This document shows, one piece after another, positions 33,815 to 39,043 of a stretch of DNA of 64,000 nt. This DNA is from Vulcanimicrobiota bacterium. Lineage in GTDB: Bacteria; Vulcanimicrobiota; Vulcanimicrobiia; Vulcanimicrobiales; Vulcanimicrobiaceae. The position numbers and the translations under genes were made by a program. The stretch is taken from NCBI GenBank assembly GCA_003168375.1, contig PMSI01000007.1, positions 186,001 through 250,000 of the forward strand, in the 5' to 3' direction. The notes below the pieces were generated by a model. It did no database searches and was not told the origin of the DNA. It saw only the letters and a program-made list of their open reading frames with translations. How positions within the stretch are numbered: the stretch's first letter is position 1; the number at the start of each line of letters is the position of its first letter.

Positions 33815-35650
33815 TTACGCTTCGGTGCCGGCCGCCTTCTGCCGGACCATCGCCCGCTGGTACCAGGCCGATACCGCGATGAGCACGACGCCGAGCCCGA
33901 GCGAGGAAAGGATCCGGTACGTCACGTCGAGCGAGGCGAGATCGACGGCGAGCACCTTGACGATCGCGCACGCGAACAGGATGATCCCGAGCCAGCGCAA
34001 CAGCCCGTCCTGCCGCGCCATCCCGATCGCGAACAGCGCGGTGGCGTACACCGTCCAAACCGCCGACAGTCCGAACTGCGCCTGGCTGGTGAGGTCGTCG
34101 AGACCCTTCGGACCGCCGAAGAGGTCGACGCACTCGCGCGAGAGCCCGGTCAGCGCGACGAGGTTGATTGCGACGATCCCGGTGACACGCCAGCCGCGCA
34201 GCGTCCGTTCTCCGGGCGACGCGGTGTCGAGCCGCGAGAGCGCGAACGCGAGCGCGGCGACGTAGACCGCGACCCCGACGGCGAGATCGTTCACGATGTT
34301 GTGCTGCGGGGGGGTCGACGCGGCGAGGCCCAGGAACGCCAGGCCGGTCCAAGCGAAGATCAGCGCGCCGGCGACCGCGACCCAGCGATGGCCGGTCCGC
34401 GTCGCGATCAGCACCAGAAGCGCCGCTTCGACGGTGAACACGTCGAGCAGCGACATCGCGTGGAAGAGTGCGGGGAGTGCGAGCGTCGCCGCGGAGAGGC
34501 CGAGATAGAAGTAGGCGAATCCGAGCGGATACGGCAGCGGGATGAAGCGCGCCGTCGCGATCAAGATGGCCGCGAAGACGAGCAGCGAGAGGCCGAGCAC
34601 CGACTGGCGCTGCGAGTAGATCAGCAGCAGCACGAGCCCGAAAGCGGCGGTGTCGAGGGCCAGGAGGGTGAGCCGCGCGGCGGAGGCTTTGCGGTCGTGC
34701 ACGGCGCCGAGCGTCGCGGCGAGCGCGAACGTCGCGAAGAACAGCGCCCCGACGATCGTGCACGCGAGGTCGTTCCAGTGGTGCGGCCGGTCGATCGCGA
34801 ACGCCGGGCCGTAGCACAGCACCGCGACGAACGTCAGCCATTCGACGAACCGGAACGACGAGCGGATCCCGACCGCGAGCATCGTCGCCGTCAAGATCAG
34901 CAGATAGCTTGCGAGCAGGGCGTGGTCCGTGCGGTCGCCGGCAAGGAGCAGCGGCGTGAGGAAACCGCCGAACGACCCCATCAGCGCGAGACGCTGGGAG
35001 CGGCGCCGCGTCGCGAGCAGTGCGAGCACCGCCGTCACGACGACCATCGCGCCGAACGCGGCGGCGCGCGGGACGTGGAGCGACGGGAACACCGCGACCG
35101 ACGCCCAGAGCGAGAGGTAGTCGATCCCCGCCCCGAGCCCGATCAGCCCTTCGGCGAGGAAGGTGAGCTCCGGGCCGATCCGGCGCGCCGCGAACAGCAT
35201 CAATCCGGAGCCCACGATCAGCCCGAGCGCGAGCCGCGCCGACGGCGGGATCCAGCCGTGCGTGAAGGCGACGTCGAGAAAGTATCCGGCCGCGAGCAGG
35301 ACGAGCAGCAGCCCGACGAGCTGCATCCCGCGGCCGGCGAGCGCCGCCTCGAGCGAGGCCTTGGGTTTCGGCGGAGCGGCACCGAGCCCGGCCGGCAGCC
35401 GCGTGCCGAACGCTTCCTGATAGCGTCCCCTGCCGTCCGGCGTGAAGAATGGCTCCGCGGCCGGCGCCGGTTGCGGCGCGGCCACCGGCTGAGGCGCTTC
35501 GACCGCCGGAGCGACCGCCGGGATCTGCTTCGGTACGGGCGGCACGAAGGCCGCGCCGCGCGCCGTGTCGATCTCAGCGCGCAGTCCGCTGAGCTCGGTC
35601 TCCAGTCGGCGCATGCGCAGATCGAGCCGTTCGTAGAAGTCGGGATTCAC
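33815..35650 (-). CDS. DUF2339 multi-spanning membrane protein
   Basis: A 611-residue membrane protein. Residues 1-32 form a short charged helix, probably a coiled coil (ERLDLRMRRLETELSGLRAEID), followed by a Pro/Ala-rich linker to about residue 85. From about residue 105 onward there are some sixteen or more hydrophobic helices, with RRSQRLALMGSFGGFLTPLLL and an end AVSAWYQRAMVRQK. This layout is that of the DUF2339 family, whose function is unknown. Its place between hutI and hutF is unusual, though it is transcribed with hutI. Confidence 0.8.
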   Translation of the reverse strand: MNPDFYERLDLRMRRLETELSGLRAEIDTARGAAFVPPVPKQIPAVAPAVEAPQPVAAPQPAPAAEPFFTPDGRGRYQEAFGTRLPAGLGAAPPKPKASLEAALAGRGMQLVGLLLVLLAAGYFLDVAFTHGWIPPSARLALGLIVGSGLMLFAARRIGPELTFLAEGLIGLGAGIDYLSLWASVAVFPSLHVPRAAAFGAMVVVTAVLALLATRRRSQRLALMGSFGGFLTPLLLAGDRTDHALLASYLLILTATMLAVGIRSSFRFVEWLTFVAVLCYGPAFAIDRPHHWNDLACTIVGALFFATFALAATLGAVHDRKASAARLTLLALDTAAFGLVLLLIYSQRQSVLGLSLLVFAAILIATARFIPLPYPLGFAYFYLGLSAATLALPALFHAMSLLDVFTVEAALLVLIATRTGHRWVAVAGALIFAWTGLAFLGLAASTPPQHNIVNDLAVGVAVYVAALAFALSRLDTASPGERTLRGWRVTGIVAINLVALTGLSRECVDLFGGPKGLDDLTSQAQFGLSAVWTVYATALFAIGMARQDGLLRWLGIILFACAIVKVLAVDLASLDVTYRILSSLGLGVVLIAVSAWYQRAMVRQKAAGTEA

Positions 35651-35723
35651 TCGGACGCCTCCCCGAGCGTGCGTGCCCGGTCCTCCCCAGGATTCAGGCG
35701 AGGCCGCGGCGCTTCATCCTTCG

Positions 35724-37031
35724 ATGCGCATCTTCGCGCGGGAGGCGCTGCTCCCGGACGGCTGGGCCCGGGACGTCGCGTTCGAGCTCGGACCGGACGG
35801 GACGATCGCCGACGTGCAGCGGGGCGCGCCGCCCGGCGGCGACGTGGTCGACGGCCCGGTCGTGCCGGGGATGCCGAACCTGCACTCGCACGCGTTCCAG
35901 CGCGCGATGGCCGGCGCCGCCGAGCGGCGCGGCGCGAGCGGCGACGACTTCTGGGGGTGGCGCGAAGCGATGTACCGGCTCGCCGCGACGCTCGATCCGG
36001 ACGCGCTGCGAACGATCGCGCGCGAGGTGTACCGCGCGATGCTTGCCGCCGGGTACACCGCCGTTGCGGAGTTCCACTACCTGCATCGCGATCCGCGCGG
36101 AGCGTGGTACGCCGACAAGGCGGAGACGTCGCGCGCGCTGATCGCGGCGGCCAAGGATGCCGGGATCGCGATCTGTCTGCTACCGGCACTCTACGCGCAT
36201 GCCGATGCCGGCGGCGCACCGCTGCACGCGCGGCAGCAGCGCTTCGCGACGACGCCCGACGACGTGCTGGAGATTGCGGGCGCGCTGCGTCGCGACCACG
36301 CCGGCGATCCCGACGTCGTCGTCGGCGCGTGCGCGCACTCGCTGCGCGCCGTTACGCCCGACGAGCTGCGCGCGCTGGTCGCGGGCTCGCCGCCGACCGT
36401 CCCGGTTCATCTGCACGCCGCCGAACAGACACGCGAAGTCGAGGCCGTGCGCGCGGCGCTCGGCGCACCGCCGGTCGCGTGGCTGCTCGCGAACTACGAC
36501 GTCGGACCGCGCTGGTGTCTGGTCCACGCGACGCACATGGACGACGCGGAACGCGATGCGCTCGCGCGCACGGGGGCGATCGCCGGGCTGTGTCCGACCA
36601 CGGAGGCGAACCTCGGCGACGGCGTCTTCCCGCTTGCGCCGTACCTCGCGGCCGGGGGACGGATCGGCATCGGTTCCGACAGCAACGTCTCGATCTCGGC
36701 GGTCGAAGAATTGCGTTGGCTGGAGTACGGCCAGCGGCTAACGAAGCGTCGCCGCATCGTCGCCGCGAGCAGTACCGGTCAATCCTGCGGCGAGACGCTC
36801 TACGCGCACGCGGCACGCGGCGGCGCGCAGGCCTGCGGGATTCGCGCGGGCGCGCTCGCCGTGGGACATCGCGCCGACCTGCTCGTGCTCGACGATCGCG
36901 CGGAGCCGCTCGCCGGCGCGCCGCCGGAAGAGCTGCTCGACCGGTACGTCTTCGCAACGAATCGCGCCGCCCCGCGTCACGTCATGGTGGGCGGGCGCTG
37001 GCGCGTTCGCGACGGAAACCCGAGTCCTTGA
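35724..37031 (+). CDS. hutF: Formimidoylglutamate deiminase
   Basis: A 435-residue amidohydrolase that deiminates N-formimino-glutamate to N-formylglutamate, feeding HutG. It has PGMPNLHSHAFQRAMAG (HxH metal site), VAEFHYLHRDP, VPVHLHAAEQTREV, CLVHATHMDD, the substrate-binding CPTTEANLGDG and the metal-Asp region GSDSNVSISAVEELRWLEYGQRL. ATG 35724 (MRIFAREALLPDGW) gives the normal start. Together with HutU, HutH, HutI and HutG it completes the five-step histidine pathway. The stop codon overlaps the -35 element of the next promoter. Confidence 0.95.
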   Translation: MRIFAREALLPDGWARDVAFELGPDGTIADVQRGAPPGGDVVDGPVVPGMPNLHSHAFQRAMAGAAERRGASGDDFWGWREAMYRLAATLDPDALRTIAREVYRAMLAAGYTAVAEFHYLHRDPRGAWYADKAETSRALIAAAKDAGIAICLLPALYAHADAGGAPLHARQQRFATTPDDVLEIAGALRRDHAGDPDVVVGACAHSLRAVTPDELRALVAGSPPTVPVHLHAAEQTREVEAVRAALGAPPVAWLLANYDVGPRWCLVHATHMDDAERDALARTGAIAGLCPTTEANLGDGVFPLAPYLAAGGRIGIGSDSNVSISAVEELRWLEYGQRLTKRRRIVAASSTGQSCGETLYAHAARGGAQACGIRAGALAVGHRADLLVLDDRAEPLAGAPPEELLDRYVFATNRAAPRHVMVGGRWRVRDGNPSP

Positions 37032-37056
37032 CCGGACGGCGACGCGGTGCTACGAT
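37028..37056 (+). promoter_or_regulatory. Sigma-70-type promoter for the lysE leader
   Basis: TTGACC at 37028-37033 and TACGAT at 37051-37056 are separated by exactly 17 bases, a near-consensus housekeeping promoter that overlaps the hutF stop codon. The predicted transcription start lies around 37063-37066, directly at the ATG (37067) of a short leader ORF. Confidence 0.6.
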
Positions 37057-37066
37057 GCGCCCGTCC

Positions 37067-37105
37067 ATGCACCATACGACCTCTCGTCGACAACGTACGC
37101 TCTGA
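37067..37105 (+). CDS. Putative leader peptide ahead of the LysE exporter
   Basis: A 12-residue ORF, MHHTTSRRQRTL, ending in TGA. An in-frame ATG at 37055 would give 16 residues (MRPS added) but lies within the predicted -10 element, so the second ATG is more likely, translated from a nearly leaderless message. It is followed six bases later by a terminator-like hairpin and then the exporter gene. The run of His-His, Thr-Thr and Arg-Arg-Gln-Arg codons suggests that ribosome stalling could report on one of these amino acids. No such leader is known to me for this gene family. Confidence 0.45.
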   Translation: MHHTTSRRQRTL

Positions 37106-37110
37106 CTGAG

Positions 37111-37139
37111 CGGTAGCCGCACTCGCGGCGCCGTTTTTT
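37111..37139 (+). terminator. Rho-independent terminator or attenuator hairpin before lysE
   Basis: The left strand CGGTAGCCGC and right strand GCGGCGCCG pair around the loop ACTC (GCCGC with GCGGC, then CGG with CCG across a small internal loop), followed directly by six T residues at 37134-37139. This is the clearest intrinsic terminator in the window. An alternative fold, GAGCGG-TAG-CCG-CA-CTC at 37108-37124, uses the same left strand and would prevent the terminator. It could end hutF transcripts as well as regulate lysE. Confidence 0.65.
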
Positions 37140-37166
37140 GCTGCTACGTTCCGAGAGGATCTCGTC

Positions 37167-37775
37167 ATGGACCCGTTTCTTCGCGGCGTCGTCATTGGGT
37201 TTGCGATCGCCGCGCCGGTCGGACCGATCGGCGTCTTGTGCATTCGCCGCACGATCGCCGGCGGGATGCGAATCGGCTTCGTCTCCGGCCTCGGTGCGGC
37301 GATCGCCGACGCGCTCTACGCCGGGATCGCGACCTTCGCGCTGGCGCTCGCGACCGCGTACGTCGCACGCCTCACGCAGCCGCTGCACCTGATCGGCGGC
37401 GCGTTTCTCCTCTGGCTCGGCGTGACGACCGCGCTGCGCGCGGCACCGGCGGCCGGCGCCGGAAGGCCGGCTCCGCGCGCGTACGCCGGCGCGTTCCTGA
37501 GCACGTTCGCACTCACGGCGGTGAACCCGGCGACGATCGTGTCGTTCGCGGCGGTGATCGCCGGCGCGGTGTTCGGCGCGCAGCCGCCGGTTGGGTTCGC
37601 CGCGGTCCGCCTCGTCGCGGGCGTCTTCGCCGGGTCGGCGCTGTGGTGGCTCGTGCTGAGCGCCGGGGTCGGGATCGTGCGCCGGGGTCTGACGCCGCGG
37701 GCCATGCGTGCCGTGAATGTCGTGTCGGGGATCGTGCTGGCGGGCTTCGGCGTGTGGGCGCTCGCGTATCGCTAG
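37167..37775 (+). CDS. LysE/RhtB family amino acid exporter
   Basis: A 202-residue inner-membrane protein with about six hydrophobic helices, of the LysE/RhtB exporter superfamily. The N-terminal signature FLRGVVIGFAIAAPVGPIGVLCIRRTI is typical, as is the central TFALTAVNPATIVSFAAVIAG. It is preceded by a promoter, a leader ORF and a terminator-like hairpin, suggesting control by transcription attenuation. Its position after the histidine cluster makes export of histidine, arginine or another amino acid possible; the substrate is not shown by the sequence. The 3' end overlaps the convergent amidase gene by four bases. Confidence 0.88.
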   Translation: MDPFLRGVVIGFAIAAPVGPIGVLCIRRTIAGGMRIGFVSGLGAAIADALYAGIATFALALATAYVARLTQPLHLIGGAFLLWLGVTTALRAAPAAGAGRPAPRAYAGAFLSTFALTAVNPATIVSFAAVIAGAVFGAQPPVGFAAVRLVAGVFAGSALWWLVLSAGVGIVRRGLTPRAMRAVNVVSGIVLAGFGVWALAYR

Positions 37776-39043
37776 CCGGGCGGAACGCGCAGATGCCAGC
37801 CCGTCAAGTGCTGGTAGAGCCGCGCGATCCCGAACCCCGCCGCAACGTCGCCGCCGAGCGCGATCGCTTGCATGCCGAGCGGCATCCCCGCCGCTCCGAC
37901 CCCGATCGGCACCGCGGCGACGGGAAGACCGAACGCGCTCGCCGGCGTGACCAGCGGAATCGTGTCGTCGCGGAACGTCGGCGGGGCGGGTGAGATCGGC
38001 GCTTCGCTGCCGGCCGACGGCGCCAGCGCGATCTCGTAGCCATTCGTGGCCGCGTTCCACGACGACCGCGCCGACGCTATGACGGTCCGCGCATCGCGCT
38101 CTTCGGTCTCGCCGACGCCGAGGGCGTGCGCGACGCGCGCGCGCACGTCGGGTCCGTACTCGTCGCGGTGCGCGGCGTACAGCGGCTCGTGGACGCGAGC
38201 GGCGGCGCGCTGCTGCACGACCGCGACGGCGCCGACGAGTTCGTCGTCCCACCACGAGACGTCGTCGACGACGACGCCGGCCCCGCGCAGTGCGGCCGCC
38301 GCATCGTCGAGCGCGGCGGTGACCGCCGGATCGACGCGGTCCCACCGGCCGCCGCGAAGACGGCACGCCCGGCGTACGGTTACGGCGCCGACCGGCCCGC
38401 CTGCGAGCACCTCGTACGCGCGCTGCACCATGACGATCTCGCGCGCCATCGGGCCCACCGAGTCGAGCCCCACCGCGAGCGGGAAGATGTCGTCGATCGC
38501 CAGCGCACCGGTCGCGGGACGGACGCCGCTGATGCCGTTCAGCGCCGCCGGGATGCGGATCGAGCCGAGCGTATCGGTGCCGAGCGCGATGTCGCACAGG
38601 CCGGCGGCGACCGCCGCGCCGGAACCGCCGCTCGAGCCGCCGGGGATGCGCCGCTCGTCCCAGGGGTTCGCGGTCCGCCCGAAATGCGGGTTCTCGGTGG
38701 TGACGCCCCAGGCGAACTCGTGCGTGTTCGTCTTCCCGACGACCAGCGCGCCGGCCGCGCGCAGCGCCGCCACGACCGGTGCGTCGCGTACCGGATCGCG
38801 GCGGAAGAACGACGAGCCGGCGCGCGTCGGCAGCCCGGCGACGTCGATGATGTCCTTGACGCCGAGCGTCAGTCCATGCAGCGGCCCGCGCGCATCCGGC
38901 GCAATCGCGTCGAGCCGCGCGGCTTCGCGCAGCACGGCGTCCTCATCGACGGCGACGTAGCAGCGCAGCCGCCCGTCGATCGCGCGAATCCGCGCGAACA
39001 GCGCGTGCGCGCGTTCGCTCGTCGTGCGGCCCATCGAAACCAT
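37772..39043 (-). CDS. Amidase signature family enzyme
   Basis: A 423-residue amidase. The Ser-cisSer-Lys triad is visible: Lys in LTLGVKDIIDVAG, cis-Ser in the PGGSSGGSGAAVAAGL stretch, and the nucleophile in GTDTLGSIRIPAA. In most family members the last motif reads GTDTGGSIR; here Leu replaces the first Gly. The C-terminal part PLVTPASAFGLPVAAVPIG and MPLGMQAIALGGD is normal. The start MVSMGRTTSERAH is at 39043 or at the ATG at 39034 (MGRTT). It hydrolyses an unknown amide. Confidence 0.88.
   Translation of the reverse strand: MVSMGRTTSERAHALFARIRAIDGRLRCYVAVDEDAVLREAARLDAIAPDARGPLHGLTLGVKDIIDVAGLPTRAGSSFFRRDPVRDAPVVAALRAAGALVVGKTNTHEFAWGVTTENPHFGRTANPWDERRIPGGSSGGSGAAVAAGLCDIALGTDTLGSIRIPAALNGISGVRPATGALAIDDIFPLAVGLDSVGPMAREIVMVQRAYEVLAGGPVGAVTVRRACRLRGGRWDRVDPAVTAALDDAAAALRGAGVVVDDVSWWDDELVGAVAVVQQRAAARVHEPLYAAHRDEYGPDVRARVAHALGVGETEERDARTVIASARSSWNAATNGYEIALAPSAGSEAPISPAPPTFRDDTIPLVTPASAFGLPVAAVPIGVGAAGMPLGMQAIALGGDVAAGFGIARLYQHLTGWHLRVPPG

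Follow-up and report, generated by a model that had tools for sequence, protein, structure and literature searches.

The LysE locus and its leader

The window, by which the whole analyzed stretch of 64,000 nucleotides from a Vulcanimicrobiota bacterium (contig PMSI01000007.1) is meant, harbors a gene for a LysE-type exporter of 202 amino acids (37167..37775; this and all other features lie on the forward strand). The protein belongs to the family PF01810 (E=1.6e-21; 77.1 bits at a gathering score of 25.6 bits). Specific exporter models stay below all curated cut-offs, and generic LysE models alone match. The upstream neighbor, which lies outside the switch described here, is hutF, encoding formimidoylglutamate deiminase (35673..37031; PF22429 and PF01979).

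A promoter, TTGACC-N17-TACGAT (37028..37056), overlaps the hutF stop codon, with its -35 box at 37028, a 17-nt spacer and the -10 box at 37051-37056. It is the sole sigma-70-like site in 36000-38500, where 0.1 would be expected in shuffles. A leader ORF of 12 codons, MHHTTSRRQRTL (37067..37105), starts 10 nt past the -10 box and is probably leaderless. Its codons (ATG CAC CAT ACG ACC TCT CGT CGA CAA CGT ACG CTC TGA) include two His, three Arg and a single Gln codon, and its RQR core is shared with two relatives, G009 and G040. Directly 3′ of the leader stop follows the terminator-like hairpin P2 (37108..37139), which is built from a stem (37108-37120/37125-37136), an ACTC loop (37121-37124) and a run of six T residues (T6, 37134-37139). 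A second, predicted helix, P1, connects leader codons (5′ strand, 37076..37100) with the complementary ribosome-binding site of LysE (3′ strand, 37142..37165), in which the Shine-Dalgarno sequence (SD) GAGAGG occupies 37153-37158; the core CCUCUCG pairs with CGAGAGG. The order of promoter, 12-codon ORF, T6 hairpin and exporter had been described in a sequence-only reading of this DNA, and every element was found where that reading had placed it.

Because the leader ORF is part of a longer mechanical open frame (34301-37105), nothing can be concluded from its being open; among dinucleotide shuffles of the window segment, 0.08% yield a closed ORF containing RQR. In a terminator scan, 0.8 sites like P2 with its T6 are expected in this GC-rich stretch, and the hairpin alone is not unusual. 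Single features are weak by chance standards; taken together, they exceed chance. The folding of the 173-nt leader (z = -3.7 against shuffles) shows that it is structured, as would also be expected of a protein- or ligand-binding riboswitch in which the short ORF is incidental. Such an element is very unlikely here, as an Rfam search of the window and 20 related loci returned zero matches to known riboswitches or T-boxes, and the conserved properties are the ORF, its spacing and its codons, with conserved structure limited to short alternative helices.

Conservation within the phylum

Among 149 genomes of the phylum, eight carry a close LysE, the window's own counted. Three of these genes are preceded by the leader (window, G009 and G040), and the other five are not. 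G009 belongs to the same genus as the window (54% identity) and G040 to another family of the same order, so the unit spans three species and two families. All three share a layout of -10 box, short ORF, hairpin, SD and LysE, in which the start codon follows the -10 box after exactly 10 nt (3/3) and the hairpin begins 2-6 nt 3′ of the leader stop. The promoter counterparts read TTGTCA-18-TATGAT in G009 and TTGCGG-18-TAGCAT in G040. The leader peptides are VTSTPSRRQRQR in G009, which ends in RRQRQR before the stop codon, and MSHDETLRQRQ in G040, which ends in LRQRQ. Each thus holds a Gln/Arg run (RRQR in the window, RRQRQR in G009, RQRQ in G040). The shared RQR is encoded by synonymous codons (CGA-CAA-CGT in the window, CGA-CAA-CGA in G009, CGA-CAG-CGA in G040), a pattern that points to selection acting on the codons or the peptide. 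In shuffles of the two relatives, a closed RQR ORF occurs at 0.04% (G009) and 0.32% (G040). ORF and hairpin are therefore both found upstream of related exporters, and the ORF is not lost where the hairpin is kept.

These relatives also bear on what the element serves. P2 could be a plain hutF terminator, accompanied by a chance ORF and promoter or by ones that serve LysE in an unregulated way. Its distance from the hutF stop is 77 nt, and T6 hairpins are, as mentioned, not rare by composition. However, the complete unit precedes LysE in G009, where hutF is not nearby, and hutF genes of the same genus without LysE downstream have no such element. Both observations assign the element to lysE and leave the hutF terminator highly improbable.

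The sequence-only reading had further proposed His and Arg as the regulatory codons and a tie to histidine degradation. A classical His/Arg attenuator of this kind would suit the two His and three Arg codons of the window leader. The His codons, however, are not conserved: G009 has none, and the one in G040 lies away from the conserved core. Moreover, the LysE of G009 sits elsewhere in its genome without a hut gene, and the Ktedonobacteria leaders described below carry Gln runs without Arg. This alternative is accordingly most improbable. The conserved codons form a Gln/Arg run instead.

In G037-G039, the promoter of G040 (GTTTTGCTAGCATTGTAGCACCAATG) leads directly into LysE with no leader. 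From these sequences, the leader ORF looks like a removable cassette that was gained or lost within the genus G037-G040. In G024 and G120, LysE lies immediately behind another open frame. Elsewhere in the window's genus, pattern searches for an RQR leader did not rise above background, and neither eye nor scan detected such a leader before LysE in Anaerolineae, Armatimonadota, Proteobacteria, Haloferax and others.

Three further observations concern the phylum. At the level of loci, the promoter of the one genus runs to LysE directly in L003, L004 and L005 and to the leader ORF in L007. A covariance model of the window and G009 (R1), scanned against 117 genomes, gave strong matches to these two only; the weaker hits inspected looked like coding sequence that lacks the leader. 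The middle of locus L181, from another genus of the family, holds a terminator with a GCCGCACTCGCGGC stem-loop identical to that of the window P2, and this stem-loop may be a common terminator form in the window's lineage.

Pairing of leader codons with the Shine-Dalgarno sequence

In the minimum-free-energy folds of the window and G009, the leader codons are paired with the SD region around the central hairpin. P1 of G009 joins GCCUUCUCG with CGAGAGGGC, and in G040 ACCCUCCGAC can pair with GUUGAAGGGU at 9/10 positions. P1 is kept in both relatives despite sequence changes. The complementarity between leader and SD, given as the worse of two shuffles, reaches p = 0.019 in the window, 0.031 in G009 and 0.176 in G040 (combined 0.005); G040 is not significant alone (p 0.12-0.18). 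In the free RNA, the SD has an unpaired probability of 0.00 in the window and G009, so that the leader codons are predicted to sequester it, with G040 weak when taken alone.

Placing a ribosome on the Gln codon in the model raises the mean unpaired probability of the SD from 0.00 to 0.39 in the window and from 0.00 to 0.22 in G009. With the ribosome at the leader stop, it is not raised in either. G040 follows the opposite trend, with a modelled accessibility of 0.16 in the free RNA, 0.03 with the ribosome on the Gln codon and 0.52 with the ribosome at the stop.

The mutually exclusive hairpin that had been suggested for the window, GUACGCUC (37095-37102) with GAGCGGUAGC (37108-37117), does exist but is weak, and the pairing of leader codons with the SD is the stronger alternative. 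The T-tailed, terminator-like hairpin is present in the window, but in G009 and G040 the hairpin is kept without its T-run. Judged from these sequences, the conserved RNA feature in the window's closest relatives is the predicted leader:SD pairing and not the T-tailed terminator.

Leaders of the same exporter subfamily in Chloroflexota

A scan of the wider exporter subfamily found terminators just 5′ of LysE in three Chloroflexota, and two class-wide searches then yielded 60 loci. In most Ktedonobacteria, and in part of the other Chloroflexota class, strong terminators stand 35-80 nt before LysE. They are preceded by short ORFs such as MDHNNKLRQQNIALQQQQGNQPDMRSG (beginning only), MNNSQRQQPASRSG, MSITVSSTRQQQRRTRWPGGTAV and RQRQQTRRSG, of which the last three are given up to their stop codons. 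In most Ktedonobacteria examined, these ORFs are Gln-rich, and Gln is the residue that stands out: at least four Gln within 8 codons occur in 18/30 Ktedonobacteria, compared to 0.2 by shuffle and 0/30 control windows. The runs mix CAA and CAG and are thus not a simple CAG repeat. In L217, L232, L241 and L245, the leader starts 7 nt past the -10 box and again reads as leaderless. Among 47 genomes scanned with CAR3-N0-30-AGGTCTGG, the leader-terminator unit was found solely before LysE.

The RNA follows a trp-like plan. Segment r1 (CCAG-CCU) directly follows the Gln codons; r2 (AGGUCUGG) lies at the ORF end or close to it and is followed by r3 (CGCCAGACCU) and by r4 (AGGUCUGGCG) with a T-run. 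The r2:r3 helix is 96% paired with three pairs changed on both sides, and the r3:r4 helix is 94% paired with four; the covariation scores of both were reached by 0/500 shuffles, for segments that were hand-picked, r2 of L278 and L280 being set by eye after the automatic pick had missed it. Examples are a U-A to C-G change in L257, G-C to A-U in L265 and L274, and the GUUCGG set of L278/L280. Covarying stems, which had been named as potential support for an attenuator, are hence present here, as are mutually exclusive antiterminator and terminator helices. When a ribosome is modelled on the last Gln codon before r4 is made, r2 moves from r1 to r3 in 7/17 loci (L257, L259, L261, L264, L267, L271 and L281), with r2:r3 no higher than 0.6 without the ribosome and no lower than 0.98 with it. 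In the remaining modelled loci, r2:r3 is favored regardless or no switch is seen, so the switch is clean in under half.

One clade of the exporter tree, with a support of 93, unites the window, G009 and G037-G040. A leader-bearing Herpetosiphonaceae sequence (L216) lies nearby, in a tree whose deeper branching order is tentative. Exporters with a leader group together on this tree, with 13 changes where shuffling gives 32.5. The leaders of the window and of Chloroflexota may be homologous or convergent. Among Chloroflexota, conservation of the gene neighborhood of LysE is lacking, and the neighbors offered no hint of the substrate. Two resemblances were seen by eye. In the Chloroflexia loci L238, L248 and L249, which lack the leader, LysE is right behind a C-terminus resembling the large subunit of isopropylmalate/homoaconitate dehydratase. 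In L260, a single case that is not conserved in other loci, the gene adjoining LysE upstream resembles an agmatinase/arginase.

Proposed mechanism

With a probability of about 0.66, 37028-37166 is a ribosome-mediated leader-peptide attenuator that is dedicated to the LysE-type exporter, reads the Gln/Arg codon run and turns LysE on upon stalling. Leader-peptide control of LysE, the core of the sequence-only reading, is thus supported by an ORF that is kept with the exporter and not with hutF, although its details are altered. The promoter would start an RNA whose first codons are the short ORF with its Gln/Arg run, which is presumably translated. Behind free-running ribosomes, the leader RNA would refold and the leader codons would mask the SD of LysE; in the window, the T6 hairpin could additionally end transcription. 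Either way, the exporter would be off. A ribosome paused on the Gln/Arg codons would occupy the masking strand, free the SD and switch the exporter on. In Chloroflexota, a pause on the Gln codons would cover r1, so that r2 pairs with r3 in the manner of a trp-type antiterminator. The best reading of these models is an attenuator that would act on transcription in Chloroflexota and, in the window's lineage, chiefly on translation.

The trigger, judged from the codons, would most likely be a shortage of charged tRNA-Gln, perhaps of tRNA-Arg as well. Two counterpoints apply: the one Gln codon of the window leader is poor for codon sensing, and a ribosome on RRQR would leave the T6 hairpin unblocked. 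If termination at this hairpin is strong, its relief would require a ribosome at the stop codon. Glutaminyl-tRNA synthetase (GlnS) was above cut-off in 0/8 genomes tested, with partial matches alone, as expected from GltX. Gln-tRNA is therefore expected to be made via the amidation route, which fits a sensor of glutamine supply without proving one. That the Gln/Arg leaders form a cross-phylum family for one LysE subfamily, which reads Gln-tRNA supply, turns the exporter on when glutamine is short and is implemented once as transcription and once as translation attenuation, is a tentative proposal that we regard as possible but doubtful.

The same RNA consequences would follow if the R-Q-R tail arrested the ribosome on a small molecule, such as a basic amino acid or a drug, instead of reporting on tRNA charging. 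Drug-dependent stalling is known from macrolide-type arrest peptides with a +X+ motif. The leaders of the window, G009 and G040 are likewise Arg-rich with RxR near the stop and merely one or two Gln codons, and their peptide core persists through synonymous changes. A drug pump, BmrCD, is among the exporters known to be under leader-peptide control (PMC4191407). Yet the Ktedonobacteria leaders are Gln runs, usually with no RxR in the stretch before r1, and the exact peptide is not conserved across phyla. Nascent-chain arrest is thus considered rather unlikely, and codon-dependent stalling on the Gln/Arg run is preferred.

Comparison with known systems

Ribosome-mediated attenuation is well known, and induction by excess through protein regulators is the usual picture for amino-acid exporters. 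Neither Rfam nor the searched literature described an attenuator of LysE or a leader with Gln codons, in line with the novelty already presumed for the former; most subscription papers lay outside the search, and this absence is not proof. Gln/Arg leaders before the same LysE exporter in two phyla thus seem undescribed so far. If the leaders do read Gln-tRNA supply, an exporter would be switched on by glutamine shortage, the reverse of the usual induction by excess. The leader switch would point to the exporter's role, which might speculatively be to remove an amino acid or a toxic analogue that blocks the supply of glutamine, and would make this role readily testable. To our knowledge, Gln would be a new entry among the amino acids that attenuators read, and a single leader logic would be seen to move between control of transcription and control of translation.

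The Chloroflexota relatives share with trp/his/ilv-type transcription attenuation the short ORF of regulatory codons and the protector, antiterminator and terminator helices. The differences are that an exporter and not biosynthesis is controlled, that the codons are Gln and that the window's conserved helix masks the SD, with a T-tailed terminator that is not common to its relatives. The window resembles ermC/cat-type translation attenuation in that leader codons base-pair with the main gene's SD, which a paused ribosome would free. In contrast to ermC/cat, the window's leader ORF begins right at the 5′ terminus of its RNA and lacks an SD, the target is LysE, an extra T6 hairpin is present and no drug inducer is known. 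In Corynebacterium glutamicum, LysE is activated by the LysR-type protein LysG in response to excess. In both cases a LysE exporter would be under amino-acid-related control, whereas the window has a leader that would act in cis and for which the models imply shortage or stalling as the trigger. The bmrB-bmrCD attenuator of Bacillus subtilis places a leader peptide and alternative stem-loops before an ABC drug pump that is induced by ribosome-targeting drugs (PMC4191407). It shares this arrangement before an exporter with the window, although peptide and RNA are unrelated.
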